Part shown: piece after piece, positions 127-60,808 of the stretch
Position numbering within the stretch: position 1 is the stretch's first letter
Layout of the letters: every line of letters starts with the position of its first letter
NCBI RefSeq assembly: GCF_009730915.1
Contig: NC_052489.1
Location: 1,860,001-1,924,000, forward strand
Source of the DNA: Dioscorea cayenensis subsp. rotundata
Taxonomy: Eukaryota; Streptophyta; Magnoliopsida; Dioscoreales; Dioscoreaceae
Reading direction: 5' to 3'
DNA length: 64,000 nucleotides
Translations under genes and position numbers: made by a program
Notes under the pieces: generated by a model
What the model was told of the DNA's origin: nothing
Database searches by the model: none
The model's input: the letters and a program-made list of their open reading frames with translations, nothing else

Positions 127-3100
127 TCACCGCCCACTAGCCGAAGCTGCAGAGAACCCGATTGCAAAAAGCAAACGGTCAATCTTCAAAATCACAGCAA
201 AACAGGGCAACACATTGACATTAAAAATACAATCATTTCTAATAAGCCAAATGTTCCACACAATAGCTTTCACCACCAAATCACACATCTCCCGTAACTG
301 GGAACACACTGTGAGACGCCACGAACCCCAAATTCTGGACATCTCCTCCGGGGGATCCGGAATCTGTAACAAGTTAGTAAAATATGTCCAAATAGGTCTG
401 ACGAAAGGGCATTGAAGGAATAAATGATCCACAGTCTCGATTCCAGCGTGACAGAGCACGCAAGTGGCCGTTGGCAACCTATTACACCGACGCTTCTCCA
501 GATTTTCCAACGTCAAAACTTTGTTCTTCCACACCAGCCAATTAAGAAGAAGAATCTTCTTAGGGCAACCACCTCTCCAGAAGAATTTCTCCACCGGGCA
601 ACGGAGGCCACCATCCTGCATAAAGTTGTAGAAGGATTTAACTGTAAACGCCCCATTGCCCGTAAGCTTCCACCTAAATGTGGGAAGCCCCTCACTAGCT
701 TCAAATTGCAAGCAACACCGAAGCGCCGGCAGACAAGAAATCACACCCTTCCAGAAAAAAGATATACGACCCGGGCATCTAGGATATAACTCCTGACGAG
801 ACAAGTTATAGTTGAATTGGATGACCTCCGCACCACCCCCCCATCTAAAATCCATAAGGAATTTCCACCACCACTTCCCAAGCAGCGCCTGATTGAATGT
901 CTTCAGGTCTAGAATCCCCCACCCACCTGCACATGAGGCCTGCAAAGGTTCTTCCAACACACGAGTGTGCAAGTAGGCTGCTCAATATCAGGACCCGACC
1001 ACAAAAAATCTCTCCTGATCCCATCAATTTTTTTAGAAACCCACATAGGCAGTCGAAACATCGACATCCAATAGGTCGGCAGCGCAGTTAACACAGAATT
1101 AATCAGCGTAAGATGACCCCCAAACGACAAAAATCACCTTTTCCAAGAAGAGAGACGGTTTCTCACTTTCAGAATAATTCCCTCCCAATCTTGACGGCGA
1201 GGTCTCCTACCCGCCACCGGGATACCCAAGTAATTTACCGGTAAAAGCCCCGTTTTGCAATTCAAGGTTTTGGCCGCCCCTTCCTCCGGAAGCACTCCCC
1301 ACTTACAAGAGTAGAGGCAAGTTTTGTCAAAATTCGTAGCTAGTCCCAACATACCTTCAAACACGAAGAGGATAAGCTTCACAATCCTAAGGTCTTCCAA
1401 CCCCCGTCGTAGTCATAACCAAGAGATCATCCGCGTAGTGCAGGTTGCACTATCTACCCGTATCCCCAATCGGAACTCCCACAAGAATTCCAGAGCGCAT
1501 GGCATTAGAGAACATAACACTCAGGACATCCGCAACAAACACAAAGAGCAGTGGAGACAGCGGGTCACCTTGTCGGAGTCCCCTCTTATACCTGACGTAT
1601 CCATTGGGAGAGCCATTAATTAAGATATTAGCCTTCGAGGAATCTAAAATGCTCTTAATCCATCCTCTCCATTTAGAGCCAAACCCCCGAGCTTCCAAAA
1701 GTTCAAGTAAAAACTCCCAATCCACTGTATCAAAATCCTTTGCAAAATCCACTTTTAGGATGTGCCCCTTTAGTCGCCTCTGACTGATGCCGAATAATAG
1801 CTCCTCCGCCGTGACGATGTTATCAAGAGTACATCTATCTTTAATAAACGCCGAATGATCCGCTGCAACACTCTTTGGGATTAGCGCAATACTCGCCCAG
1901 TTAATTCTTTCCAAGTTAGCCTTTCCCTCGATGAAATCTTGGCACATTGACATAATGTTGATGTTCACAACATCCCAGAACTGCTTGAAGAAAAAAATCG
2001 GGAACCCATCTGGTCCCGGGGCTTTGTCGCCACCGAGCACAAAAACCGCAGTTTCAATTTCCTCAAGCGTAAACGGCCGTTCTAAGTGCAATAAGTTCAC
2101 CGGAGCCTCAAACTCCAGTAACTTATGCAGATCCACCTTGAAACGATCGCACCGGCTACTACCAAAAAGAGCTTGGAAATTTCCAATGAACACCTTACCA
2201 ATCTCCTTAGGGTCAGCCAAGTCCCGACCCTCGTGCCGTAAGCAAAGGATAGCATTCTTATTCTTCCGGCCATTTGCCACTGCATGGAAATATTTAGTGT
2301 TTTCATCACCATGTTTCAGCCACTGCAATCGCGATCTTTGTTTCCAGTAAATCTCCTCTTGCTTACGAATGATCTCCAGCATCTCCAACAAAACATGTTC
2401 CTGTTGCCGTTCTTGGACTGATAGCCGACTGGACTCCTTCCTAATGTCAAATCTTTCTAACTGATCCAGAAGGTCCAATTTCTTGAGCTTGATCGAACCA
2501 AAGTTGATCTTAGCCCAGTGCCTGAGACGCTCCCTGACATTAGCAAGCTTCTTAGCATGATGAAAGCCCCACACCCTCTCAGATCCAACTCCCCCCACCA
2601 ATTAATCACCAAATCCCTAAAACCATCAACCGAAGACCACACTAGCTCAAAGCGGAAGGGTCTTTGAAATGCTGATGATGACCAACCTCCAGTCGAATAG
2701 GCACATGATCAGAACCCACTCTTGGTAAACTCTTCTGGTAAAGTTTGGGGAATTTTAAAATCCAGCTGCTATTGACCAAAAAACGGTCCAACCACACCCA
2801 AATTGGATTCTCCTGTCCATTAGTCCATGTAAATCTTTTGCCCACAGAGGGGGGTTCCCATAAACCTAGGTTATGCATCAGCTCCTGAGCAGAACGACTA
2901 TCCGATAAACATGGAGCCCCAGATAATTTATCATCCCTCGAGAAAATCGCGTTAAAATCACCACATAAAACCCAAGGAAAGTGTGGGAGCAAGTTAATCT
3001 CTCGTAGCTCCTCCCAGAATGCGTTCTTAAAATTCCGAACAGTTGGGTCGTACACCGATGTACAGCGCCAACTAAAATTGTCCACCTTGGAGGAGAAAAT

Positions 3101-3387
3101 CACAGTTAAGCTAAAATCCCCTAACTTCTCAACATGGCCCGCCCAGAGCACACCATTCCAACTTATGATGATACCTCCCGCAGAACCCTCGTTGGAACAA
3201 AAGCAAACTGGTCTAATCGATAACCCCCAATTTCACGCCACATAGAATTAGAAATCACACCCAATTTAGACTCTTGCAAACAACAAATATCAGCAAAATG
3301 CAAATTCAAAAAATCCTTCACTAGAAACCGTTTCGCCGGCCTCCCCAGGCCCCTAACATTCCAATTCACAATATTCATTAACAACAC
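127..3387 (-). pseudogene. LINE ORF2 (endonuclease, reverse transcriptase, zf-RVT)
   Basis: The product would be an AP-type endonuclease (about 3387-2645), reverse transcriptase (about 2601-1134) and a zinc-binding RVT domain (about 972-127). Landmarks are CLQESK and CGDFNAIF in the endonuclease, FAKDFDTVDW, GLRQGDPLSP and HYADDLLV in the polymerase, and CVLCHAGIETVDHLFLQCP with WNIWLIRNDCIF in the C-terminal domain. The pieces occupy at least three minus frames with stops between them, so this copy cannot make full-length protein as given. It may still have been mobilised in trans. The first residue MNIVNWNVRGL, just downstream of the ORF1 stop, fits a family start. Confidence 0.88.
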
Positions 3388-5516
3388 TTAGATTACGCGG
3401 TCCTCCGAGGAGGAACCCGCCGGCCACTGCACTGGGGGAACTCGTGATTTTTCCATCAAACGAACATGAGCAATACAATCAGGAGCAGATACACCAAAAT
3501 GAATACCACAAGCCATACAATAACTAGAAATTTGTTCATCAGACCAATCATCAATTAAAATATGCGCAGGATTGTAGGTCATACCTGCTGAAGACTCTCC
3601 TCGCACAATTTTCTTCTTGGATGAGACCGGAGGCTCCGTAACAAATCCCGCGTCCTCATTGAATCTTGAAGAAGGTTTCTTGGGCCTCGCACTTCTCCTA
3701 GTCCCATGAGGCAGGTCTGAAGTGGTACCCTCAGTGTTACCCGGCCAGTCTGGTAAGAGAGCCTTCAGCTTCTTCTCAAAATCAGAACTGGAATCGTCTG
3801 ATTCAGCAACAACTTCTGGGGAGGACAAGCTTCCACTACCTAACCCATTATCCTCCTCAGCACCCATTTCCACAGTCCGAGTACCACTCCTATTGATCTC
3901 AATCTCCACACGTGCCACCATAGCCCACAAACCCGCTAAATACTTCCACTCATATCCCTCCGGTGGGAGTAGATTTGGCAGATCAGGAATAGTGATCTCA
4001 TTGGAGGAAGGGACAGACAAATTGAGACCCACCCCCGTATGCGAGTCAAGTGCATGAGAGCCATCCATCATCTCATGAATAGAGACCGAATCCTTCTCCA
4101 AACATGCAACTGGGTCCATAGAAACCTGACTTGAAAAATGGTCCGAAATCTGATCAGACGCCGGCCCAGCACCAAAGCCCAAAGTACATTTTGAACTCAG
4201 GCCCAACTCCCGATCCCCAGCTTCCACATCACAAATAAGCATAGGGTCCACAAAGTCTACAAGCTAGCCGAACCCACATTGGGCCCATTCACCTCAGCTT
4301 CCAAAGGGTCTAAATCACACCTGCAAATATCAACCTGACGCGTGTCCTTCTCACGAGAGTCCGCCACCTTAACGTTCGCGAACCCAGCTTTCGAGATAGG
4401 ATTTCCTTTCTCCGTACGTTGTACCTGCACAGCAGCTGGCCGGGCGCGCCATCTCTCGACACGAATGCACCTCGAGCCACCCCTCTGAGCACCGTCCTGT
4501 CGTTCCACGGGAGACCGAGCACCCTTAGAACCATCAAGTCTTCTCCACCGGTTTGTGGAAACATCGGATCCTCGCCCGGAGATCCATTCCATCCCACCGG
4601 AGCGGGAGCGAGGCTCAACCGGCGCCACCGTCTCCACTACATGGGAGCAGCGCTCAACCATTATCTCCGGCGACTGCTGCATAATGGCTCCCCCCTCGGC
4701 CTGCACCATAGAGACGCCAGACAAGGTTGGCGGATGAGCACGTCCCTTCCTCTTCACAGTCTCCTCCATCACCATCTCCCTAATGGAAATCCTACCGTCT
4801 AACCGACCAGAAGCCGCCTCCGATCCCGACCCCGGCAAAGCATATCTACCCAATTCTCTACTAAACACAGGAATCACTCCACGCTCCGCCGTGATGATGA
4901 CCATATACTTACGCATACCCAGACAGACCTCCACCTCCATTGGCAGCGAAACTCCAGCTCGACGTCTCCCCAGCACCGAAATGAAATTTTTATGGGTTTG
5001 TGTCGCATTTGACAAAGCCACCAGGTCCCCCGCTGGTCGGAGCACCTCCGCAACCACATTCCACGACCACCCATGCAGAGGAAGATTCCACAAGTGCAGC
5101 CACATCCCCTCCCCTGAGGCCCTACCCTCTGCGCCTAGCTCCGCCGACCATGGGGCCAAATTCAGCTCACAAGGTCCATCCTTTGTAGCGACCTTGAAGG
5201 TACCTCGCTTACACACCTCCTTCACCTCCTCTCTACTCGCCAACGGAATAATGAAGTTACATTCGTTCAATGGCATTATGGGGCCAGCAAGACCAACGTT
5301 AAAGAACGACGGAGCGATCTCTAAGACACTGGTGTCATTAACATGGCCCCGGACAATAGATAAGATTACCACCTTCGCCAAGTCCTCCCGAGCGGCAGCA
5401 ATCTCTGGCATGAGCTGCAGCGACACAAAAACTTTACTAGTCGTTGAGCGGTCTCGAACTTCGCCAGGCTTCTCCGAAGTATTCCTCTCAACTGACCTCT
5501 CTACCCCACCAGCCAC
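3388..5516 (-). pseudogene. LINE ORF1 (gag-like, DUF4283-type)
   Basis: The first part (5516-4257, 419 codons) has a region near residues 30-215 resembling the DUF4283 nucleic-acid-binding domain of plant L1 ORF1 proteins (for example MWLHLWNLPLHGWSWNVV). A basic, Arg-rich tail follows. The second part (4251-3388, 287 codons) lies in another frame. It is acidic, with a basic patch RRSARPKKPSSRF and a C-terminal Cys/His cluster (YCMACGIHFGVSAPDCIAHV). The two parts probably form one ORF1 interrupted by a frame change near 4255, but two overlapping reading units cannot be ruled out. The stop at 3388 is followed at once by the start of the endonuclease in the same frame. The role inferred from the family is RNA binding in the retrotransposition particle. 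Confidence 0.7.
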
Positions 5517-5855
5517 AGCACCCGCATAGCTCGTAGAACCCTCCGAGCGAGGCGTTTTTGATCGACGCGTGCGATCGTTCTGGTGAGGTGCGTCTCAAGT
5601 CGACTACGCACTGGCAGCGGATGACCCACCCGGCATGCACGGAGACAAACCACTTGGTGTCGACACTCAGCCGTCTTGTGCGAGGTTCAGAAACAGCGTC
5701 CACACGTGGCTTCGTTAGGAAAGCGAGGCCGCTTGGAGCCCGTTAGTTTCTGTCCTCCACTCTGGGCTTCAAGAACCCCCTTCCCCAGGCCCGCGCGCTT
5801 CTTCACAGCTGACCACTTGTGCAAACGTTTTCTCAGGCCCAGAAGTTTAATTAGA

Positions 5856-31159: not shown

Positions 31160-34100
31160 TCAGGCAAGGTACCGATACAACTTCCGGTCAGTCTTATCAC
31201 GCTCCAAGAACTCACGCTCGATAAGTGACTCGATTCGTTTCTTAATCACAACAGGATTTGGCAGGAACCGAGATTGTAGCTGTTTTGTTACCTCAGCCAC
31301 AATGTTATTATGATCTAAAACCCGTCTGGATTTCATAATTCTCACAATGGCAGCCTCAATTTGAGGTTTCCGGTCTTCCTCTACTCTCTGGCGAGTCTCA
31401 AGCTTCTCTGGCTCTGATTCCTTCTGTGCCACAACCGTACCTATTTTAACCTTGAAGAACTTGCTAGTGAATTTGTCATTGAAGTAGAAAGCATCATCTT
31501 CACCAATATCTTTACTCATGGGTTCCTTGCGAAGAACATTTTTAGCCTTGACACAAGCAAGGGATTGAAGGCATCTCTTCAGGTCTGCTGATGGTATCTC
31601 AGTAGCCTCTTCAATTTCTTTATAATTCAGGCAATCAGATGAATTAAAGAGCATGAGGATACACATCTGATAAGTTGAGACATTAAGTTCATGCTTCTGG
31701 CCTTTTCCAAAGATTGCTTTAAGGTCTGCTGTCCCCATATTTGTCTGCCATGACAACCTTCTCCCAGTGTGTGTTCCAAGATAAAATGCTCTGAACCTTT
31801 CACATACACTAAGAATTTCAGCTGGCAAGTTGCAAGGGGCACTAGGTTGTGCAGGCCAGGACCCAGTTGTTAAGACTTGGACAGCAAGGGTTGGACTCTC
31901 ACCAGAATCAAAAGATTGGCTGGCATAGAAGCCTTGCATGGTATCCTGAGAGGTCTTCATATCTGTAAACATGCCTTCTAACTTAGAAGTGAACTGATAG
32001 CCACATTCTGTCTTTAGTTTCACAATCATACTTCTCTCTGCATCATCAGAGACTGTCTTACCAGAAAGCAGGCGTTTGGCCAAGTGTTGCTTGTAATATT
32101 TTTCAAACACATCCTTCTCTTGCAGGTATCTGAATAACATCATCACTTTGTCCAAGACAGTTTCTACATCCTCTTCACTGACCCCTTTCAGGCCTTTCCG
32201 GAGCTTATCATCAACATACAAGGATATGAACTCAGGAGACCTATTGTTCAGATTGATGAAGTACTCAAATGAAGAGTTTAATGCATTTTGGAATGTTTTG
32301 TCATTATTAAATGCAGTTGTAATGATCTTATCAAATTTGTATCTAACATCTAATAGATGCTGAACGAAATCCACAGGATCCTTCAATTTGTCCACATCAG
32401 TTACTAACTGCCTTCCAGTTTCTCGAAGATGAGCAGTCATAACCTCTCTAATCGTTGAGAGTCCTTCAGGGACTCTGTGGAATAAGTTGTACATTCTGCT
32501 CAAGTCATCATACTTATCATCCATAAGCATATTCACAAGACCAGAGTTTTCCATGTGGACCAACCTCTGCATGTGGTTATCAATCATCTCCTTCTCAACG
32601 ACGTAAGTTATTTTAGTTTCACTTTTAGCATCTAAGTACTGTGAAACCCTCTCTATTTCCTCATTAAGCCTTCTCTCAGCTTTCTTAAGGTACTCACCAC
32701 AATCACAATTATCAATGAACTGCTGAGACTCAACTCTGTAAAAATCAGCTGAGACCTCAAGAAAATGCTTCTCAAAATTATCTTGGTACACACAAGATCC
32801 CAAATCCACCAGCATCTTTGTTATATTCCTCATTAATCCACGGTTTATAACTTCTCCAGTCCTCTCTCTGTGAATAAGGTCAAGGAGTGTGTTTTGTAAC
32901 CGGGTCTGTATTTTGCTGCAGTGGATGATATTGTCCCTCCAGAGATTCAGTCCAAGTTCATGAACAGGTGTCTTATGATTAATAGGAACAAAGGTTCTAT
33001 CCATGTACATCAATATATCTCGGATCATCTGCAAAGCCTTGTTGTGATCCCCCCATCGTCGGTTCAGTTCCTCAAGAAACAGTCCACCCTGTGCAGACTC
33101 TACAGATTTACACATTTCTTTTAGGTGCAATGTCATCGTGGTCACAAGACCAAGATACAGCTTTTCTCCATATTTGTGCAACACCATATTGTAAGCGTTC
33201 CTATAGTCATAAAAGAAGCTGAGAATAAATGAATGCAAACTAAAAACACATAAAAAACAGGATCATGAGACATGGAAATCTTCAATGTGAGAAGAAAAAC
33301 AATGGACCAGTTTTTATCTCTGGTTTATAATCAGTATCACTGCAAAGGCAACCAAATATAATATCATGGTCAAGTATTTAAGTCATTAAATCAAAATGTG
33401 CTAATGACTTGGATTATTATATTTGAAATTACAGTGTTGCCACCTTTTGGGCACATCCAAACCTAGTTACTATTTTCTTTTGTGGATGAAAATTCAAAGA
33501 TAACAACAAACCATATCTTATCATAAACAACTAGAGATAATTCATAAAAACATGGCTGAAAATAGCTAATAAAGCAGTCAGAAGGTATGGAAATAGAGGC
33601 ATAAATGTTTGCATATACACGTGGAACATCACATTTTCTAGGTGTTACCAGCCCTCAATCTACTCTCTTTTTTTTTTTAACATTATCTCATGTTTTTTTT
33701 GTATCTTCACAAGCTCCATAAGAATCCCTGCAACCAAACTTCCAATAATTGATATTCCAACCTCCTCTTACAAGATTTAATCATTTAAATAAATACATAT
33801 AATTGTTAATTTTTAAAAATTATTACTATTAATAAATACCAATCATTAATTAGAAAAGCAAATTTAAAATCTTAAAGTTTTTAAAGTCAATTCCCTCTAT
33901 TCTTATCTTTCTATCTTTTAAGTTTGATTTTTCTTTATCTTTATCATCTTCTTAATCCTTCTCGATTTTGCTAATTTTCATGATTCATGTGTCCACATAT
34001 AAACAAACATTCACACACATGCCCGCGCGCACCCAGACACATACATATATGACCACATGTCTAGTTTTCACTAACTTCACATCTAATTCGCAATGCCATA

Positions 34101-44550: not shown

Positions 44551-45714
44551 ATGGATCACCGAGATATCAGCGGCGGCAACTCTAGTGGTAACAACGGAGG
44601 CAGGTGGAGGTGGAGGTGGAGCTTGTCGGAGACCCAACTTCCCTCTCCAACTTCTTGAAAAGAAAGAAGATGATCCATGCTCTACTTCCACCTTCCCTTC
44701 TCTCGCAATCTCCACCACTCCTCCTCAAGATCTCTCCACCACCCCTTCCACCTCCACCGACCCCCCTAAGAAACCTCCTCCCAAGCGATCATCCACCAAA
44801 GACCGCCACACTAAAGTCGACGGCCGTGGCCGTCGCATTCGCATGCCTGCCTTATGGGCAGCCCGTGTTTTCCAACTCACTCGTGAGCTCGGCCACAAAT
44901 CCGATGGCGAAACAATCGAATGGCTCCTCCAACAAGCCGAACCTGCCGTCATCGCTGCCACCGGCACTGGCACAATCCCTGCCAACTTCACCTCTCTCAA
45001 CATCTCCATGCGTAGCTCAGGTTCTTCCATTTCTGCTCCCCATCATCTTCGCGGCGGCGCCGGTTACTTCTCCCATCAAAACTTTATGTACTCCTCATTA
45101 CCTTACTCAACCTTTACGGCAATCTATGACTGATTCTCCAGCTCCCATCATCTTCTATGCTTAACTTCAACACTGATACTGACAATACTAGTGCTCGTAA
45201 ACGCCGATGGCCTGAACAAGATATGATCATCATCATCATCATCATCAACATCAACAGTCAATTCAGCAGCAACAACAACAGCAGCAAATGGCAAGTAGTA
45301 GCAGTGGACATGGGCAGGTCCCCACAACACTATGGATGGTCACAAACCCTGGGAATCAAATTTCAGGTGGTGATTCATCTTGGCCTTTTCCATCCTTATC
45401 TGGGGCTGCCACCACTGCAGCAATGTTTAGAGGTTCAATGTCAAGTGGTTTGCATTTCATGAATTTTCCGGCACCGATGACTTTGATGCCTAGCCAACAA
45501 CTAGGGTTAGGTACCGGGCACTGTCGGCGCAGGAGAGGCCGGGCACTTGAGCATGCTTGCGGCACTCAACGCTTATCGACCTTTTGGTACAGGAGGTGGA
45601 ACTGGAGGTGCTAGTGGCGATCCGACAGGATCACGGCAACTGCAGCAACAAGGTGGTGGTGGTGGTGGTGGTGGAGGAGATCGTCATGATACAATGAGTG
45701 CCAGTGACTCTTAG
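44551..45714 (+). pseudogene. Class I (PCF-type) TCP transcription factor, frame-broken
   Basis: TCP factors bind GTGGGNCCCAC-like sites and promote cell proliferation and growth. The gene is intronless, as is usual. The start [15 protein letters not shown] is in one frame. The TCP domain ([17 protein letters not shown] onward, about 44800-44960) and [19 protein letters not shown] are in a second. A later stretch SMLNFNTDTDNTSARKRR, then a His/Gln-rich part ending QVPTTLWMVTNPGNQ and GLHFMNFPAPM, then HLSMLAALNAYRPF through to a stop at 45712, lie in further frames. At least four shifts are needed, mostly beside simple repeats (GGA, CAT, CAA, GGT). All parts keep the TCP14/TCP15/TCP8-like order. 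The usually conserved Cys of MPALCAARVF is Trp here. Either a decayed copy or poor base accuracy in repeats explains this. Confidence 0.88.
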
Positions 45715-46425
45715 CTTATATATATATATATATATAGATAGATAGATATATTTATATCTTCTCAAATCCATGCATGAGTTTGAGTTTCATCACTTCATTT
45801 CTTTTTAGGGTTTCTGAGATATAGTTTCCAATGAGTTGGGAATTTGATTGAGTCTGCTAGCTTTTCTTTCTTTGTTTTTTGAGCTATTGTGATGAGAGAG
45901 AGTGAGTGAGTGAGTGAGTCCTTGAATTCATGAAAGTGTTATCATACAATGATCATATTTCCATTATACTTTCCTTCTTTCAACCTCGATCTCCATGAAC
46001 TTTGGAAATGCTTAATAAACCCTAGCAATCTAAAACCTATCTCTTATATACCTCCTGCAGCCCCCATTGAACAATATTGTTTGACAAGAACCTGTACTAC
46101 CATCCATCCATATATTGTACCACCTTTTACCCCTCTTATATATATATATATATAAAAAGAGTATGTGTATTTGACTCAGATTCAAATTAAGTTTTGAATG
46201 AAAATGGAAATGGAGGGGATGGGGGGGCCAAATGAAGATAAACAGCATGGTTGAGCTGTCGGTTGTTTTGTTCCCATATTAGAGCTGTCACATGTTAATG
46301 TCATGGTGGTATTGAGGAAGCACCAAAGGGTCTCTTATGTGTTGTACACCACATATAGGCTTATCCTTTTAGTCTTGTCATGGTTTTTCTTTCACAAAAA
46401 CAATATGCTGTGTGTGTATCAGTGT

Positions 46426-46457
<32 letters not shown>

Positions 46458-47271
46458 TAGCATGGCCTTCATCCTTTGCCATCACTCCTTTGTCTCTTAA
46501 CTCATTCCCCCCTTTTCCTTCTGTTTGCTTTCTGGGAAACCACAACATCATCATCAACTCTCTCTCAACCCTTCTTCATCTTCTCCTTCATTCTTTCTAC
46601 TCTATTTTAGTAATACTCTTCATCAATTCAGTTAATGTTTATTGCTAGTGATCATGAAATGGCAAGAGTTTTTGTTTCAACTTAATTTCAAGATTGAATG
46701 CATGCATGTAAGTTAAGTTATTCAATGGGTGGCTGCATTTGATGTATGATTTTCAGAAACATTATTCATTCACCCAAAGTTCATATAAAAGTCTTTATTT
46801 TGTTGGTCTTTTTACAAGGCTGGATAATATGAGACATTGTATGTTGAAGTTAAACTGGTGGGATGAAGTACAACCAAGAAAAGGAAATCTTAGATAAAGA
46901 TTGTTTTCTAAGTCTCTATGTCTTTTGTCTAATTAAAAATATACCACATCTTATCATGTAATTTCTTATATATTTTTTTTTCAAATAATATATATATAAA
47001 TACAAATACAGCCAATGGACAAAAGAAGATAAAAGTCAAAAAAAAAAATATATATATATATAGATGTAGCCAATGGATATTTGACACGTCATAAAAATAA
47101 ATATACTGTCAGATTTTGTACAAACTTAGTCAAAGTCAACTCCAATCCCAAGAAAGCCCAAAAATTTCGGTTACTTAACTGTAAGTTCAAAGAACCCCCT
47201 AAAAAAGTTTGAATTTATGAATTAGTCCTTTCATTTCAAAGAACAACTTCAACTTTAACTTCAAATCGAAA
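45715..47271. other. TCP 3' region and intergenic DNA with microsatellites
   Basis: TA repeats lie at about 45717-45735 and 46137-46154. A TG then GA repeat occupies 46424-46458. No gene is recognised. Confidence 0.55.
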
Positions 47272-49859
47272 ATGGCGAACTTTCTCAAACCCCTCGCGGT
47301 TCCAATCTGGATCTTTTCCTCTATTTATCTTCTTCTTCTCCTTCGGATTCGCAGTGAATTGCTCCAATCCGGGTAATCGTCTCCTCAAATTCTTCAATTC
47401 ATTTTTTCAGATGGTTTTTTTTTTCCCATTTTTACGGATTTTTTTTGGGGGCATTTTAGGTTTCAATGTCATGAGTTTTGATCTCAGATAAGGGATGGAG
47501 AAATCTCAGTTTATGTTTTTCTCTGATCTCTTTGATTTAAGAGAAGGAGTTGTGAAATCGAAGCTCAAGGTGTGAGATTTTATTTTTATTTTATTTTGGT
47601 TATTTTAATGGTGTTTTGCTTAAAATTAGGCTTCGGAGCCGCCATTTATGGCCAATGTGCTTTGAATGGAGTGTTTAAATTTATGAATGTTTAATGGGAA
47701 TGCATTTATTTGTTGGATATAATGATAATGTTGGATAAAGTTTGTTTTTTTTTAATCAATTTTTTTCACTTTTGGTTGCTTTTAGGATTCTGCATTCCAG
47801 CAAACTTGCATTAATTTATTGACATCCCATTGAAATTTCACTAATGTTTCAGTGCAGGGATGTTGTAAAAGAGGTCTTACATCCCTATTTTTTGTTGATA
47901 AAGGTGACACCTTTTCTTTGACCTAGTTGCTTCTTCTTCTCATTTTTTGGCTTTCCTATCTTTTGGAGTCTTTGATTATATTTAGCATAATATATAATTT
48001 CTAAAACATTTTGTTGAATTTCATAGTAATCAACTCAAGCACATGAGATGCCTTAGAAACAAACCTTGTGTGTGTGTGTGTGTGTGTGTGATTATTTGGT
48101 TTCAGTATTAATCTTGTTTAATGCCTCTCATTAATGCCTCTCATTATTTTGCTTCAGTTAGTGCAAATAAATTAAGGTCTTTTGTATAGTCTTTGGCCAT
48201 CCTGTCATTTAAGCAGGATGTGATGATACTAAGATCATGATGCCTCCTTTCTCTTTAGATTTTAAGAGCCTTTGTTTCACAAACAGTAATTTTTCTAGAT
48301 AGAGTAGAACTAAAACCAACTGTTATGCTACTACTTTGTTGGCAGGTTCATCTTAATAACTTCTTTGTTCTCCTGCTTCAGAAAGACATGATTTTGTTAG
48401 TTTCTCTTTGTGCTCTTGAAGTGTTCCTGATTGAAATAATTCCCAACCTTATGTCCTATTTTGAGGAAAGAAATCAGAGATGCCCAGTCTTTCCTTTGCA
48501 GCTTGCCCTTACATTAAACTACCTGATACCATCTTAGACAATGTTTTAGTGGAGTAAATGCTTGAACACTCTACCTACATGAAGTTCTTCATGATCAAAC
48601 AACAAATTCACTTCAACTTATTGTACTTATTTATCAGTTTATAGTTGTTTCTTAATTAACAATGATTTATGACAAGCTTGAGATGACTGTTAATATATCT
48701 TCGTTGAGTATTGACTCTGTTAGAACTCTCACATTTATGGTCCCTCCATATTCCCTGTGACCTCTGGTACAGATCATATGGCAGTTGGAAAAAGCCGAAG
48801 AAAGCGCTTCCATGCGCACCAAAAAATCTTGTAAAACAGCATGTCTTTGACTAATTTCCTAATAACCGATGAGCATGGTGGTTCTATGTGCATGGATTCT
48901 TATGACCTTCAAATAAAATTCACCTGATTCATCACACCTTTGTCAACTTTGTCTTCCATGCTTATAAATGAACAAAGATAACATCTCTCCTTTTCCCAAT
49001 TCTCCATAGTCCAAGTCCACATCTCCTTTACATTGTTGAGCTGTCATTTTCGTACTCTGTTTTCCTTGTCTTTTTTTTTTTTCCCCCTTTTTTCTTACGG
49101 TTAAAGGTTCTCTGTTCTGATGCCTTCTTTGTTTCTATGATACAGTATGACTACTGATTCTTTATACCATTGGACGAGTTATTCCTTTTTTTTATGCAAA
49201 TTCTCTTTTGGTTTCTACTTGGAAGAATGCAAATGTTTGGTAGATTTTGTTAGCATGTTGGAAGATATGTACCAAGTCTGGATTAATTTGGCAAACTGCT
49301 TTAGTGGTTATGTCCTACAAGATTCTTATGAAGGTGAAAAGTTGGATTTTGGCATTGTCCTAATTTACTGCATTCTGGCATCCACAATGCACACACACAC
49401 ACACACACAATCTTTAGTTAAAACCATTCAGTCAGCAGAATCAGTTATCATTTTTTTTATAACATAAACCTTTAGAAACATTTATTGTTTGTGTTGTCAA
49501 AAAGATCCATTAGTTTGTAGTTTTCCTTCTATTACTATTCCTTATAATGCCGATAAATGGATTGAATATATTTGAGTTCTATTTCCTGCTGTGCTTTTAG
49601 TTCGAATTGCATTTTTTGCTTCTCCAATGAAATCTGTTACTTATATACAGTGAGTGTGTGAAACATTGTACTGCCATTTCTCTTAAACACTGCAGTTTTA
49701 TTCTTGTTAGTATTTTATATCTGCATTTCAATTTTCTATGTTAATATTCTTGAATTCTTGGGAGATTCCTTAATTGTTTATGGTGCTTGCAGGAGTTTGG
49801 GCAAATTGGGAGCTTGTTATATAGTTCGGAAAAAGATTGTTCTCATTGTTAAATTGTGA
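47272..49859 (+). CDS. Candidate 55-aa membrane protein, two exons
   Basis: Exon 1 (47272-47372) starts MANFLKPLAVPIWIFSSIYL and ends at a GG|GTAATC donor. A 2.4-kb intron is followed by a good acceptor (pyrimidine-rich, TTGCAG) and exon 2 (49793-49859), reading SLGKLGACYIVRKKIVLIVK to a stop. The join gives 168 nt, 55 aa. Residues 10-26 form a clear membrane helix, followed by a basic cytosolic-like half with a second short hydrophobic end. I do not recognise the family. The intron contains other open frames (48325, 49147) that I regard as chance. The CG-bearing, less AT-rich texture of exon 1 and its leader supports a real gene start. Confidence 0.4.
48069..48090. repeat. (TG)n microsatellite
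   Basis: About eleven TG units inside the intron of the small membrane protein candidate. A (CA)n tract of similar size lies at 49389-49409. Confidence 0.85.
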
Positions 49860-52109: not shown

Positions 52110-52349
52110 ATATATTTTTTTGGGAAGAGGAGCGGGACGAACCCACTAGAGACCCAGGGGACGCGCATGCCTCGGTGGAACAAGTGGGGGACGTGGTGCG
52201 CTCACGTGCGCCTGGAACCACCCATACACAACCACTATTCACAACTCCTGAAATGTCGCTTAGCTCGAGCGAAAATCGAACTCTCACCACTCGGTGAGGA
52301 GCTCTATCGACGATCCGGGTGTCATGGGAATAGGGCCGAAGGTTGTTGG
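52110..52349 (-). mobile_element. tRNA-derived SINE, copy 1
   Basis: On the minus strand it carries a polymerase III B-box-like GAGTTCGATTTTC (about 52273-52284) and ends GGTCTCTAGTGGGTTCGTCC, then CGCTCCTCTTCCC and a short A-rich tail. It is flanked by the direct repeat TCTATCGCGCAGAT (52096-52109) and TCTATCACGCAGAT (52350-52363), one mismatch. About 240 bp. It matches the copy at 52956. Confidence 0.85.
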
Positions 52350-52363
52350 TCTATCACGCAGAT

Positions 52364-52614
52364 TTTCCTCATGGTTTGCAAGTTGGTAACTCAGTTATAG
52401 ATGCAATCTTGTTATTGAAACCAGGAAATGATGCATGATTGATTTCTTCAGCCAAAAAAAACAAAATTTTTGATATTCATGGTTGATGATTGTAATTACT
52501 CACTTAAATACTAGATGGGACTTAAATACTTTCTCGTCTGTTCTTGCTCTGCGTTTGATATTTTTCGCATTAAGAATCCATATCAATCAACTTTAATTGG
52601 TGCGTTGTGAACAG
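52364..52614. other. Remaining intron of the bHLH relic
   Basis: Nothing else recognised. It ends in an AG at 52613-52614. Confidence 0.3.
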
Positions 52615-52955
52615 ATTCCGCCGGAGAAAAACAAGCTCAAAGATGAGCAAAAGAGCAATGGAAGTTGATATCGCTATGACTACACGCCGAGCTTTCTCAG
52701 ATGTTATTGTTACAGTCCAATCTAGTTTCACAAAACAAATCTTGATCAACCAACTCTCTTGGTTCCTCTTCCGCCGGAGCTCTAACCTAATCATATCAAG
52801 TTACAAGCAATACTGAAACCTAATTCTTCTATTTAGGTCCAGAGAGCACAAGATATCCGATCTCCATCCAAGATATCTGCAAAGTGCCGCCAATTCTGGT
52901 GGAACGATAGACAACACCAAAGACAACAACTCCAACAGCAAAGGCAATGAATTGC

Positions 52956-53189
52956 GCCAGACGACCCGTCAGATTAGCATTTGTCGAGTCGTAGATAGAG
53001 CTCTCACCCGAGTGGTGAGAGTTCGATTCCGATTGAGAGCGTTTACGGGAGTTGTGAATAGTGGTTGTGATACGGGTGATTTCGGTACCACGCGTGACAC
53101 TCGTCCCCTCACTGTTCGACGGGCGAGCATGCATCGCGTCCCCTGGGTCTCTAGTGGGTTCGCCCCGCTCCTCTTTCCCAAAAAAAAAA
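52956..53189 (+). mobile_element. tRNA-derived SINE, copy 2 (inverted to copy 1)
   Basis: It has the B-box-like GAGTTCGATTCC (53019-53030). It also has the shared 3' body CCCTGGGTCTCTAGTGGGTT and an A10 tail. It is flanked by GCAATGAATTGC (52944-52955) and GCAATGGATTGC (53190-53201), a 12-bp target duplication with one mismatch. Body sequence is clearly the same family as copy 1 with scattered differences. Confidence 0.88.
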
Positions 53190-53565: not shown

Positions 53566-56327
53566 TCATGTCTCCTGTTTGCAGGTATCATCTAATCGTT
53601 TCAGAGTTCCTCCCTCGTAGTAGTTACTAATATCAAAATTTGTCACTGCGTGAGCTCCTCGCAGTTCAATGGCTGCGATATCATAAGCTTCGGCAGCTTC
53701 TTCTTCCGTGTCTAATCACCAAAGTTTAGTCCAGAAGATATCACAACTGTTTATGCAATTACATCGAAAAGTGTAAGACCAAATGATGGAGAATAATGCT
53801 TACCAAAGGTTCCGAGGTAGATGTCTTTAGCGTCCCGGCTTTCACCAACCCGACCTATCCTTGCTTGCCATTTCCCATCTTTCCGCCTTCTGGAAGGGAA
53901 AACAGAAAAAAATTAGATGAGAAGTGAACCATAGGTGGATAATAAGCATGGAATGTGTTTTGGTTTCAGTACGCACCTCGTCACACCTCTGTACATTGAT
54001 GCTCCTCGTGAGAAGCAACTACTTTGCCTGCCATAGGAATGTACAAGAAAACGATGCTTTGTTCAAGATATTCAAAGAGTAATAGAGCAGTTTTGCATGG
54101 AGAAATAAATAAATATATATATATATATATACCTCCGAACATAGGCAACAAATTCCTCATGGGACATTTTCGTCATTATCTCCATTTCTTTCTCATATTC
54201 TGAGATCTGTAGGTCAAGCCAAAAGAAAAAGTGAATCTCACAATCTACCTATAAAAGACAAGAATAATAAAAGAAAGGCATGGTCTACTTCAGAATCTCA
54301 CAGGGAAGTTTAGTTTTCCATTTGGCCCTGGACCGAAGTATTTAAGAGCTGCCAGGTCATGCGACCTTGCTGCCTGTTCCTCAGACTCATAACTACCTAC
54401 ATGCATTTCAAATTTGGCTCACATAATAAAATAAGAATGGCACCAAATCATAGTCAAAAAATATTCTCACCTAAGTACACTGGAGTGCCATCGTCAATAA
54501 TATATAGGCAGCACGAAATCCCACCATCAGGCAAGTCCCAGGATCAAAAGACAGAAGAACTGGGGTCAGAAGAAAGGCCACACATGAAATTTAAGGACAT
54601 AATATAAGTAAATACACAAGTATGAACAGACATGAACCCTCTGATATAGGCCACCTTGCCACAGGCTGAAACAAAATGCCTCATTTGTTATATGAAATAT
54701 CAAACTTACTCAAAGGTTAGGAAAGCTGCTTGTTTTCCATTTAAAGCAAGAATTTGAAAGCCACTCATGCGAAAAGCTATAATTTTAAGAACATAAAATG
54801 GCACATCTTTCTTGAAATGCATCTTGAAAATTTCTAAAGAGTCCAAGAGCAACTTAAATATTACTGTTAATTTGCCATTTGACTAGAAAACCTAAGGATC
54901 AAGTACTTCAGTAATTGATGTATAGTAAACTAAGGACATTACACTAACTATAACTGCAACAATGCACATGCATGGTATTAATACAATAAACAACCCACAG
55001 TACTGAAAAAATTCAATAAGGTCGAATGATCCACGGGGACATCAACACTTGACAGGATGGAAACTAGAGGCAAAAATCCCTTTTTGCTTATTCTGATAAA
55101 GCCTTCACTGCACAACACAACCCACTTTACTCTAAACACAATCAGCACATATTAAATATGCCACAAAAAGAACACTTTCTAGCGATCCATATCCCAAAAG
55201 AATTCTTTCAGAGAACTTCCGCGAGTATTGCTAAACTATTGAACTCAATTGGGCAGTACCATATATCTCATTTTTCCAAAATTCATGCTACACAACCCTG
55301 GATACAGAATGTTACAAAATAACAAAAAATAAAATCTTTCACAAAAATAAGATCATCATTCAAACAAAATTTGGGATCGCCATCTTTCCTCACATCTTGC
55401 ACGGTTGTCCTATATGCTAATCCAAAGCCACCAACCTCTTCATGGGTTTCACATATAGTGAAACCGCTCAGCTAGTCAGCTTATGTCAGTCCTTAAAGAG
55501 TTCTTCAGGAACACAATTGAGGGCAACAAATAAAGAGCAGCAATCCCTCAAATTCAACTGCTTCCAAAATTTTTTATAACCTGATGTAAAAGGCAGTTGC
55601 TATTTGGCAAACTAGTGATGATGCCTCAAAATTAAGACTTTCAAATTAAGACTACATACACTCAAGAACATCTATAAAACAACAACGATAATTCTTGTTG
55701 GAAAAAACATGAAACAAATAGTTACAAAGCATTCCATACCATGTTTGCCTTTTCTTTTCCTCCCTTCAACATGGCTAGTGTTATCCCAAAGATGCGCCTC
55801 AAATTTCCCACTCCATTTTAGCCTGCAAATAAGGAAATCAAACCAATCATTAACATTCTTATTATGACCATCAAAATCAAGCTATATTTTGAGTTATCTT
55901 CAAAAACTCACTTTGTCACTCCATGGTAGTTAGACGAACGCGGAGCAGCATACTTCTTCATGGCTGCCGCCACTAAAGTTCCAACCTTTCTTTCCTCCTT
56001 CTTCTCGGGCACTATCAGTCCAGGTCTACACTCACCGGAATTCTTCTCTGGAGCCTCTTCCAAGGCATTCGATTTATTCTCACCGGCGATATCATCCACC
56101 AAAACAGCGTCCCAGGCTTCGGCTTCATGAGATTTCGAAGCTTCTTCACTGGGCTCTTGGGTAAGCTTCTCAGATGGCGTTTCCAAGACGAAGTCCCCGG
56201 CGTCCTTCTCTGCGGCGACGGTGGCTTCGGATCCGTCGTCGTCGTTCAAGGAAGGCAAGACTGGCTTCGGATTAAGATTTCCCAAGGGATTTGGAACCTC
56301 CATTGGATCTGGGAAATTCTCGGTCAT
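53566..56327 (-). CDS. Divergent double-AP2 transcription factor, gene A
   Basis: Eight exons join in frame: 56327-55912, 55822-55740, 54479-54471 (9-nt micro-exon, VYLG), 54396-54302, 54206-54133, 54027-53977, 53889-53804 and 53711-53566. They total 960 nt, 319 aa. The start is [13 protein letters not shown]. Residues 1-130 are acidic and unstructured. The first AP2 repeat is at about 134-200 ([20 protein letters not shown], with the ANT-lineage insertion) and the linker at 202-226. The second repeat is at about 236-296 ([20 protein letters not shown]), with a three-residue insertion before IYLGTF. The first repeat has His and Lys where YRGVTR is normal. It lies 1.4 kb from its paralogue, gene B, in the same direction. 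The function is unknown, as a DNA-binding regulator. Rice SMOS1-type imperfect AP2 factors are a possible relative that I could not check. Confidence 0.93.
54471..54479 (-). other. 9-nt micro-exon of AP2 gene A
   Basis: CCAG|TGTACTTAG|GTGAG on the minus strand. With the flanking G it encodes VYLG, the micro-exon typical of AP2-family genes. The phase matches both neighbours. Confidence 0.93.
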
Positions 56328-57697
56328 TGCTCCAAAACCCTCAATTGCTCTTTCTTTTTCGAATAACAACAATTCCACTAATCAAACTTCGAAAAATCTC
56401 CCCCAAAGAAATCAAACACCAAACAAAATGTCAAAATCAGGAAAAAAAGAGGGGCAAAATCTAAAGGAAAAGAACCGATCCCAAAAGGCAAAGGAAAAAA
56501 AAAAACACTACTTTCAAGAAAATTTCAACGAAAAATTTGCAAGTACTAAAGGAATCAAAGAGAAAAGATTGAAATTCAGCGAAATTCAAGGACTCAGCAA
56601 TGTTGATTTGGATCTTGATCAGAAGAAAGGAAAACCCTAGAAACGAGGGGGGTTTTGATCGTGATCCAAGAGACAAAGGGAACCCGGAGGATGGGGACTC
56701 GTCGGTGAGGTTACCGAACGGTGACGAGATCCCTCAAAATTAGAGTCTAGAGTCTAGAGTCTAGTGAAACCATGTCCAGGTTTTGAAACGCGCGTGCCTC
56801 TATCACATCACGCTTGCCACCTTGCCCAATTACCGTATTCCACGTGTACTATTCGGATCTCGCAGAAGAAAACAATGAAATTATTCTCATCATTTTCTAT
56901 TTTCTTATTTTCATTTTTTCCTCATAAAAAAACAATTATATATAATAATTTCTTATAAATATTTTTAATAATTGGTGGACGAACCCTTGTTCACAAACTG
57001 ACAAAATATCTAAGTATGAAAACAGACTTACAACCCAATTTTTTTATCGAAGAATAAAAATACACGTGTCTTTGCCACATTTGTCATATATATCTTTGTG
57101 TGTACAGTTGACAAAAAAATTTGTGATTGAAAAATCTAAAGAAAAATGGGTATATTAATAACATTAACAATAATATTCCAACAGGAATGACGATTGTAAT
57201 TGATTTGAGTTATATTCATAGATGATGCAATCTATATATATAAAAACAATTTATTTGTATAGAATTTTTATTTTTATTTTTATGTTCTAAGCTTTAACAA
57301 TTGATAAAAATAAATCAAGATTTTTTTATCTGTAAACTGTAAATAATTCACTTATATATATATATATATGTGGGTGTGTGTATGTGTGTAATTATTCAAT
57401 AGCGGATATGAAGATGGAAAAAAGGAACAAGAGAATCAAAATAAACAATCTCCCCCAAAGTAACCTCCAAAGAACAGCCTCTTTAATAAGGTTACATACA
57501 CAGAAGGGAGATCTCACTCAAGATAAAAACAAAGGAGATCTCATAGCTGTAAAAGTTAACCCCAATTCAGCCACCACTGGCCACATATCTCATCAAAATA
57601 AACAATGAATTCATTAACAAGTAAGTTATAGGGGGGTGCAAAATTCATGCTTCCATCTTCAGCTGCTGTGAAGTGTTATGTCACACATAGCTATGCA
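56328..57697. other. Region between the two AP2 genes
   Basis: It holds the gene A leader and promoter (56328 to about 56770, GC-richer) and the gene B 3' flank. TCTAGAG is repeated three times at about 56743-56764. A TA/TG tract lies at 57355-57389. The open frame at 56221-56640 (plus) is a shadow of the leader. Confidence 0.5.
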
Positions 57698-60600
57698 TCA
57701 CCTGTCAATTAGATCAGTGTAGTTACTGATGTCGAAGTTCGTTATCGCATTCAACCCCCGTAGTTTGATGAGGCCGATGTCGTAAGCTATCGCAGCTTCT
57801 TCTTCCGTATCTAGCATTATTATTTGATGATTATTGTTTAATGGAATGGCTGTTTAAACAAACTAACGATGGCTACAGAAAAGAGAACACTCACCAAAAG
57901 CTCCGAGGAAAATAGCTCTAGTGCCTGCAACTGAGCCTAGACGAGCTTGCCATTTCCCGTCTTTTCCTCTTCTACAGTATGGAAATAGCTAGATTAGCTC
58001 CAAATAAAGAACGTATCAGCTATAACAAAAGAAATGAAATGAAAGGGATTACCTTGTAACTCCTCGATACGAAGAAATTCCTCTTGAGAAACTTCTACTT
58101 CGCCTGCAACACAAAGATACTTGATCATAATGAGAAATGCAATCACTGAATCAAACCTGCATTTAATGTTCAAAAGTATGAATATACCTTCTAAGACATT
58201 GAATCCATTCATCCTGGGACATGCTTGTCATTTCCTCGAGTTCCTTCTCATATTCTGATATCTGCATAAGTGCCCCACAGTCACAACACCAAAAAAAAAT
58301 TGATATATTGAAAAATGGGACATTCATAAGTTCCTACAAGACAAGAATCAGGATATGGAAAAAGACTAACAGGAAAATTTAATTTGGTACTGGAGTTTGG
58401 ACCCCAGTATTTAAGGGCAGCAAGGTCATATGCTCTAGCTGCATCTTCCTCAGTGTCATAACCTCCTGCACGGGACACCGATGATAATTGTAAGCAACGT
58501 GTTTGCGTACCACAATAACAAGATGTGTGGAACATCAGTGGCAAACATTGACTTTACCTAGATAGACTGATGCATTGCGGCAGCAGGAACAGATGGCACA
58601 AAAGAAAAAAGATTAGTAAACAACAAATGCATTAAATGAAAACAAAATGACAAAACTTTGTACGCAAGAATTTTAGTTTTATCCTCAGCTTTGAGTCAAA
58701 AGGTTGTGGCCTTTAAATTCAATTCACTCGAAGAGGAAGTCATACTGGTTAAGTACAATCCAACTGGATGGACAAAGAAAATAGAATGACACAACTTATT
58801 CAAAAGTTAAAATAAAATCATTACTTTGTTGTTCGCTCAAATAGTGACAAACACAATCACTGCAATAGATATACTGATAACCAATTAATAGGGTGATAAT
58901 CAAGCTCAAGGACTATCAGATCAATAACGCTAAATACAGGAAAAGAGGAGATATAGGATCCCATATCACCATGACATATTTGGTAAAAAAAATCTAAGCA
59001 ATGAATGCTTAAGCACGTTTGCACAACTTTGTCTCAAGAGTCCATCTTCACCTAGAACAAGTATTGTGTATTAATTAAGAGTAATTTTACCAAGATAAAC
59101 AGTATGTAACTATCAACTGTATATTTTGAATCCATTGTTTAATTCATAGAGAAAATAATGGTTTAAAAGAAAACAAAGCAGATGGTGGACAAAGACAAAT
59201 AACAAAGAAGGAAATGATGCCCAGAACTACAGATGGCACAAAACAGTATGAATTTTGTGCATTAACTCTAGTATCAATAAACACATATACGAACTTATTA
59301 TACTTCCATGACACGTGCCCATAGAAGCTTTCAAAAACAGATAAACAAGAATGAAATGATTTTGTAATTACAAAATCAACATATTTCACAAAATTCATTA
59401 TTTGGTTAGAAAAGAAAAAATTAATGAACTTCCAACTGCTGACTTTGCCAACTTAGACTTTCTCGTTAATTGTCAAATAATATAACCTGAATTATACGCC
59501 TGCAATTTTAGCTTGACATAAGCATTGAAATAATCCAGTGAGAAACCAATGCATCCAGGGCATATTCATGCTTTTATTAGTAACAAGGATGATATAAGTA
59601 AACCTTCAATGTCCATAAAAATTACCAGATAATTCTTAACAATGAAGATGTACCTTGCTTTCCTTTACGCCTCCGGCTTTCTATGTTGATGGTGCCATCC
59701 CACAAATGAGCTTCAAATTTCCCACTCCACCGATGTCTGTAAGTAGTAAAGTCATTTATCAAATCATACTATACATCTCTAAAGACAGAAGCATCCACTA
59801 CCTTCAAAACTTCAGCTTTAACTGAAAAAACACAAAAGAATCTATAACAAAGTAGGTAAGCATTTTCTTCAGAACTCACTTAGTAACACCATGATAACTT
59901 GATGATCTCGGAACAGGTGCCTTCTTCGGAGCAACAATAGCAGAGTCATCACCAACCTTCTCCACTAAAGCTTTGTCCGCATCCTCGACCAATATTAAAT
60001 CCCCAGAAACCCCCAACAAAGCATTGTCCCTCTCAGTAATCCCCACAGAAACCATAGTCCCACTCTCAGCTAAAAAAGAACCGGCATTCATTCCAGAGCT
60101 CTCAATGGAAGCAATGGGCTCACCAAAGGCTACAAAAGAATCATCCTTCTTCTCATTGCTCTCAATGGCAAAAATTGCATCAATCTCAGCCACCAATGAA
60201 CCATCCTTCTCCCGTCCACTCTCGGAGACATTTATAGAACCATTAACAGCTTCTAAACAACCATTCTCCTCACCAGTCTTCTCAACAGCAACTAAAGCAT
60301 TAACAATACAGCCTCCATCATTTTCCAAGGACCCACCTTTCTTCTCCTTACTCTCAGAACAAATAATAAGAGAAGAACCAGCTTCCAAGGAAGCATCTTT
60401 CTTCTCATCACAAGCACTAATATCAAAAGCAATCATAGGATCACCATCAACTTCCAAGGAGCCAAATTTCTCAGTATCCGCGCAACTAGATGCAAAACCG
60501 GCAAAGTCCGGCATTGATGTTTCATCGACTGATTGATGGTAAGCGCCGGCAGCCACCAAGGAGCCATCGATCTCCTTTGAGTCGCCGGGAAGCTCAAATT

Positions 60601-60808
60601 CTTGAAGCTCCTCGGAGGAGGCCACCGGCGAACCCCGGCTCCGAATCTCTCCTCCTCTTTCTCACTAACAAAAACGATTAAATTCACCAAAAATAAATAA
60701 ATAATAAAGAAAAAAAATTCCACAAATACCAAAAAATCTATTTGAAACTAATGTTGATTTGATTCAAAGAAAAAACGAAGAAAATAGATTAAAGAACATA
60801 CCTTTCAT
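57698..60808 (-). CDS. Divergent double-AP2 transcription factor with repeat-built N-terminus, gene B
   Basis: Nine exons join in frame: 60808-60802, 60660-59880, 59736-59654, 58566-58558 (9-nt micro-exon), 58465-58371, 58261-58188, 58103-58053, 57971-57895 and 57810-57698. They total 1290 nt, 429 aa. The open frame of exon 2 has no usable ATG before residue 52. A seven-base coding first exon (ATGAAAG, donor GTATG) joins it in frame, giving [13 protein letters not shown], so I chose that start. Residues about 30-230 are acidic and made of degenerate 20-24-aa repeats. The AP2 repeats are at about 258-324 ([20 protein letters not shown]) and 360-416 ([20 protein letters not shown]). Exons of 83, 9, 95, 74 and 51 nt are identical in length to those of gene A, proving tandem duplication. 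The role is inferred as a nuclear DNA-binding regulator. Confidence 0.92.
58558..58566 (-). other. 9-nt micro-exon of AP2 gene B
   Basis: CAG|TCTATCTAG|GTAAAG on the minus strand, coding VYLG with flanking bases, in the same position and phase as in gene A. Confidence 0.92.

Follow-up and report, generated by a model that had tools for sequence, protein, structure and literature searches.

Tandem double-AP2 genes A and B of a yam and their relative C: probable old paralogues on a motif-poor ANT-side branch

How old is a pair of neighbouring genes whose DNA-binding halves align well and whose N-terminal halves mostly do not? Two double-AP2 genes, here called A and B, raise this question in a stretch of 64,000 nucleotides of Dioscorea cayenensis subsp. 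rotundata (NCBI RefSeq assembly GCF_009730915.1, contig NC_052489.1, forward-strand positions 1,860,001 to 1,924,000). We refer to the whole stretch as the window, and to its contig in the 584-Mb assembly as C19. Gene models built from the sequence place gene A at 56327-53566 and gene B at 60808-57698, both on the minus strand and both with intact open frames, encoding 319 amino acids and, given a 7-nt first exon, 429 amino acids. A preliminary description of the locus proposed that, after a tandem duplication, the DNA-binding half was held and the acidic half rebuilt. We found a third gene, C, on another contig (C5), and its comparison with A and B points to a different history. A and B are probably old tandem paralogues in a motif-poor branch on the ANT/PLETHORA side of the family, which would have split before a block duplication, with the A copy lost on C5.

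Gene C and the order of duplications

Genome searches with both AP2 halves, together with a spliced aligner, located gene C at C5:30515849-30513350, with exons of 557, 83, 9, 95, 74, 51 and 77 nt followed by 131 coding nt. The analysis covered, at least in part, 18 of 30 candidate regions in this genome, and A, B and C are the only members of their clade among the matches listed. The clade has a support of 100/99 in protein trees, in agreement with the earlier view of A and B as close paralogues in tandem. The claim that the DNA-binding half was held also stands. For the AP2 halves of A and B, the codon-model synonymous divergence (dS) is 3.25 (1.89-12.2) at an omega of 0.064, and these halves look to be under strong constraint. 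Being near saturation, the A-B dS was set aside as a means of dating the split.

Gene C lies in a duplicated block: on C19 as on C5, a CUL3-like gene, a TCP gene and an AP2 gene agree in order and strand. The part of the CUL3-like neighbour at 31919-33199 (minus strand) has an 88% protein match at C5:30482626, and the part of the TCP neighbour at 44762-45109 (plus strand) has a 92% match over 100 residues at C5:30502199. Beyond both TCP frames follow five collinear similar stretches (window 45926-48826 versus C5:30503563-30507999), which are short and 74-88% identical; a sixth noncoding stretch was dropped, as it falls inside the C5 TCP reading frame. For CUL3, the dS between the two contigs is 0.83 when counted and 0.87 (0.73-1.03) under a codon model; the corresponding TCP values are 0.87 and 2.1 (1.09-7.75). 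The CUL3 value is near 0.869, published as the median dS of the "delta" duplication of the D. alata (yam) genome (PMC9010478), and the block is of genome-duplication age.

Within the clade, protein trees join B with C (94/92 and 95/94). Four rows that were fragmentary or not double-AP2 (L051, L052, L058, L062) were omitted from the trees, and the tree with the 95/94 value, which was also used for the approximately unbiased (AU) test, was built without L054 and L066 as well. The AU test rejects A+C (p 0.024). Strict shared-derived sites, counted against 11 outgroup rows (without L054, L056 and L066), number 12 for B+C, 4 for A+B and 0 for A+C. Given that the protein data place A outside B+C and that B and C lie in a duplicated block, there were probably already two lineages when the block was duplicated, and A and B probably separated earlier than the genome duplication. 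The preliminary description would be contradicted by A and B falling in separate old clades shared by many plants; the protein data and the block bear out half of this, the probable separateness and age.

The best-supported order, though not a settled one, would thus begin with a duplication within the divergent branch, which most likely gave the A lineage and the B lineage. A later whole-genome (block) duplication would have copied the region, C19 retaining A and B and C5 only C, the counterpart of B; the counterpart of A would have been lost from C5.

Several observations weigh against this order. Three of the 12 B+C sites (64, 130 and 134) adjoin indels. Other points on this side also favour a tandem duplication younger than the block duplication, in which A would be a fast-evolving copy of B, confined to C19, that lost its repeat-built N-terminus. 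Four derived residues are common to A and B, and the protein AU test gives p 0.065 for this pairing. Codon positions 1 and 2, analysed additionally without L056, L070 and the WRI1 row, give B+C a support of 62/31 and leave A+B unrejected (p 0.447). Moreover, a search of C5 between TCP and gene C turned up nothing AP2-like that could be left over from an A copy. Spliced scores for A in this interval are 59.4 on the minus strand and 67.5 on the plus strand (the latter apparently TCP coding sequence), compared with 60.3 for one shuffled control, and the best tblastn E value is 0.45. A young tandem duplication would come closest to the preliminary description, but we consider it rather unlikely. 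The strict sites favour B+C by 12 to 4, the protein support for B+C reaches 95/94, the repeat N-terminus described below occurs in B and C only, and the A-B dS is well above the CUL3 value of the block.

A further point against the preferred order is that the B-C dS of 1.85 (1.31-4.26) exceeds that of CUL3 in the same block. This could mean that the divergence of B and C is older than the block, or that these genes change at a higher rate. The former would be explained by an array of at least three genes that existed before the block duplication, with C19 keeping A and B and C5 a different third member; B and C would then not correspond to each other as copies within the block. This seems quite improbable to us, as it requires one extra gene and more losses. 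In addition, fourfold sites do not differ significantly between B-C (29/53) and CUL3 plus TCP (74/176; p 0.12), and TCP of the same block is likewise high in codon-model dS. A faster evolution of B than of C was not established, since the relative-rate difference is not significant (14 versus 8 unique changes, p 0.29); the protein tree nonetheless gives B a longer branch. We favour the order in which the A/B split precedes the block duplication.

Two side observations concern the block. The five stretches beyond TCP are conserved on both copies and could be regulatory elements. When window 44762-45700 is compared with C5:30502199-30503182, the C19 TCP frame ends at 45133; farther downstream, parts of what is the C-terminal half in the C5 TCP can be recognised in other frames. 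The C19 copy appears to be frame-shifted in its second half, or there are small assembly errors there.

The N-terminal halves

Both N-terminal halves had been described as acidic, and they are: D+E make up 20-21% of the N-termini of A, B and C, and the net charge is -14 in A and -29 in B. They had also been described as unalignable, which holds for most of their length. The local score of A against B is 44, compared with a shuffle mean of 36.8, and 70 of 500 shuffles are as good (195/500 when the last 25 residues are removed). The description fails for a block of 20-25 residues just before the AP2 repeats, KVG(T/D)...KK...PR(S/T)S.YHGVT, which aligns across A (55932-55988), B (59900-59959) and C. 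For A against C the score is 49 versus 30.7 (6/500); without the last 25 residues, it drops to 29 versus 29.7 (275/500), and the likeness of A and C is, by these alignments, confined to the stretch before AP2.

The N-termini of B and C, by contrast with these pairs, are clearly similar. Their local score of 122 stands against 44.7 +/- 7.9 in shuffles, with none of 500 as good, and the likeness persists without the last 25 residues (88 versus 43.3, 0/500). The N-terminus of B exhibits a 20-residue period (z 4.6 at offset 20 and 3.3 at offset 40; 99% limit of the shuffle maximum 3.64), and that of C a 24-residue period (z 5.6; limit 3.89). According to this period test, both are built from degenerate, imperfect tandem acidic repeats, with a unit of 20 amino acids in B (59978-60466, approximate boundaries set by eye) and 24 in C. 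No significant repeats were detected in the N-terminus of A, where the best offset, 28, has a z of 2.8, inside the 95% limit of 3.23. At the DNA level, the exon that encodes the repeats of B shows weak 60/120-nt offsets. It does not qualify as a DNA minisatellite, given that Tandem Repeats Finder reports only two short arrays in it, one at 60004-60065 (31 nt x 2.0) and one at 60260-60288 (12 nt x 2.4).

The proposal of an acidic half rebuilt following a tandem duplication is not supported, in the form put forward for the pair, by this comparison. Because gene C has the B-type N-terminus on another contig, this N-terminus is no recent rebuilding. Any change that followed the A/B split would be a loss of the repeats in A or a gain of them in B and C.

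A genome search with the B N-terminus returned itself, a broken fragment on contig C2024, and gene C at an E value of 0.45 only; the B-C likeness is therefore clear in shuffled local alignment and too weak for a genome-wide search. In a search of this genome, the A N-terminus matched itself alone (one match, E up to 1), and the idea that gene A captured its first exon from a different gene was rejected. The C2024 fragment (C2024:115771-116114, L075) is an isolated piece of the repeat exon that resembles window 60134-60475. It is identical to the gene B exon in 294 of 343 aligned columns, with 27 gaps, and is interrupted by stops and a 23-nt gap. No AP2 match was found within the 4.5 kb examined around it, and it resembles a captured or pseudogene scrap.

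A long stretch ahead of the domains is among the traits used to define euANT proteins; the stretch before the AP2 domain measures 132 residues in A, 256 in B and 179 in C, the B figure hinging on where that protein starts. A fold for the B N-terminus was sought with AlphaFold2 on a three-row alignment, and the mean pLDDT of 29 is uninformative, merely compatible with disorder. We suppose that the double AP2 module is under strong purifying selection, and that the acidic and probably disordered N-terminus drifts freely. The acidic N-termini may serve as activation regions.

Gene models and the exon skeleton

The coding exons of gene A, all on the minus strand, begin with one of 416 nt (55912-56327), which encodes the acidic N-terminus without significant repeats. 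It is followed by exons of 83 nt (55740-55822; AP2 repeat 1, also matched by PF00847), 9 nt (54471-54479; a micro-exon encoding VYL), 95 nt (54302-54396), 74 nt (54133-54206; linker), 51 nt (53977-54027), 86 nt (53804-53889; repeat 2) and 146 coding nt including the stop codon (53566-53711). Gene B, on the same strand, has a long N-terminal exon of 781 nt (59880-60660), then 83 nt (59654-59736; AP2 repeat 1), the 9-nt VYL micro-exon (58558-58566), 95 nt (58371-58465), 74 nt (58188-58261), 51 nt (58053-58103), 77 nt (57895-57971; AP2 repeat 2) and 113 coding nt including the stop codon (57698-57810). Introns are GT-AG throughout in both models.

The putative 7-nt first coding exon of B (60802-60808) is weakly supported. 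A GT donor is present, and the open frame requires that the intron end in TTAGTGAG immediately before 60660, a weak acceptor, since a second AG that could compete with it lies 4 nt upstream. Without this exon, gene B would begin with MPDFAG, at the first in-frame ATG of the 781-nt exon.

The identical 83/9/95/74/51 exons noted earlier were confirmed with a custom spliced protein-to-DNA aligner, which recovered them in B from the A protein and in A from the B protein; incoming phases are equal from the 83-nt exon onward. The next exon differs, being 86 nt in A and 77 nt in B and C, as A has three additional codons inserted in repeat 2. The skeleton is not a special mark of the pair. We applied the same aligner to 12 further genes of the ANT lineage in this genome, of which 8 are euANT-type and 4 WRI-type. 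All 12 have the 83-nt exon, and the 9-nt VYL exon is separate in 10, the other two having 98 nt (9 + 89). Exons of 74 and 51 nt are separate in 8/12 and fused to 125 nt in two, both WRI1-like; the remaining two models (L047 and L070) pair 51 nt with a shortened exon 5 of 59 or 56 nt, which may be an aligner artefact. We count the skeleton as a family trait because the same exons occur across ANT-lineage genes; A and B inherited it from the family. The literature likewise describes a 9-nt VYL micro-exon in the WRI1 genes of numerous plants and micro-exons in the land-plant AP2 subfamily (PMC6681275, PMC7714060, PMC3724841). The sole skeleton feature particular to A, B and C is the 95-nt exon 4, which is two codons longer than the 89 nt of other ANT-lineage genes and occurs in 0/12 of them.

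In the two genes with a 98-nt exon (L044 and L045, one WRI-type and one euANT-type), the micro-exon is merged with the next exon, an apparent intron loss. Just downstream of gene A, inverted repeat arms of 51, 40 and 27 nt lie within window 52115-53185; they are 88-94% complementary, 675-969 nt apart, and resemble two opposed copies of a short mobile element. Farther away, open frames at 1450-5594 (minus strand) resemble a non-LTR retrotransposon, with reverse-transcriptase-like and endonuclease-like stretches judged by eye.

Placement within the ANT lineage

Each protein has two PF00847 stretches, and whole-protein scores exceed the curated cut-off. A target site of miR172, the mark of euAP2 genes, had no match in the window at up to 3 mismatches, using what we take to be the site pattern. 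Relative to one euAP2-type row of this genome, the proteins carry a 10-residue insertion in repeat 1 and a 1-residue insertion in repeat 2, which correspond to the definition of the ANT lineage (PMC6361745). A WRI clade of four rows, supported at 100/100 in the tree used for the AU test, excludes A, B and C. Judged from this tree, the branch is on the ANT side, attached at some point among the euANT genes, and not with WRI. The likeness to WRINKLED1/basalANT proteins lies in the double AP2 domain with VYL, and the B core aligns with AtWRI1 (PDB 7wq5) over residues 1-173 at an E value of 1.7e-64.

The closest comparison within the genome is with euANT/PLT (AINTEGUMENTA-LIKE) genes, e.g. those at C18:20.69M, C2:0.51M and C3:18.18M. 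These share with A, B and C the two AP2 repeats, the 10-residue insertion in repeat 1, the exon skeleton with its VYL micro-exon and a similar linker. In contrast to them, the branch appears to be poor in euANT motifs. The euANT1 stretch is altered: of the ten positions of the motif NSC[KR][KR]EGQ[TS]R, A agrees at four, and B and C at two each. We did not find euANT2 (WLGFSLS), euANT3 (PKLEDFLG) or euANT4 (TFGQR) in any of the three proteins, the best identities being at shuffle level (50 to 300 of 300 as good). TFGQR precedes the AP2 repeats in 7 of 8 modelled euANT-type genes of this genome, with SFGQR in the eighth. The C-terminal tails of A, B and C measure 6-17 residues.

The three genes also differ in the YRGV of repeat 1, where R is replaced by H in 3/3; the other 14 rows have R in 13 cases and K in one. 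In ERF-type AP2 domains, this R contacts DNA, and the residue changed in A, B and C is presumably DNA-facing too. As a side observation, the euANT-type genes at C3:18.18M (L055) and C3:18.23M (L056) lie in opposite orientation about 43 kb apart and have identical AP2 core codons, which indicates a very recent duplication or an assembly artefact.

Published descriptions offer some parallels. The euANT2-4 motifs are described as not kept by all euANT proteins (PMC6361745). The same source presents Sobic.007G056700 as a motif-less monocot euANT with a divergent 10-residue insertion in repeat 1, which is like A, B and C by description only; for the two rice genes listed with it, repeat 1 is described as reduced, at 33 and 38 residues, in contrast to A and B. 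The nearest published description is that of rice AP2/EREBP22, which is called divergent and placed near euANT/PLT; it is said to lack a close relative in Arabidopsis and to have a short C-terminal region (PMC8302143). Mutants of that gene have changed panicle branching, tillering and flowering time (PMC8302143). The resemblance is by description only and serves as a lead; by analogy, A, B and C may have a role in meristem or organ regulation.

A conserved DNA-binding half beside divergent acidic N-termini is an ordinary pattern for this family, and the N-terminus of B and C is mildly interesting. A bolder proposal, which we offer tentatively, is that these genes form a distinct ANT-side branch that dropped the euANT N-terminal motifs, carries expandable acidic repeats of 20-24 residues instead in B and C, and changed DNA-facing residues of both AP2 repeats. 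Target choice and activation strength may then have shifted while the exon frame stayed fixed. The new facts are the third copy C, the repeat-built N-terminus common to B and C, and the probable age of the pair. Together they show, cleanly and at one locus, a DNA-binding module that is conserved next to an acidic region that runs free, and the duplicate block offers a comparison that can be dated. They leave the understanding of the family unchanged and draw attention to a little-studied, motif-poor branch on its ANT side.

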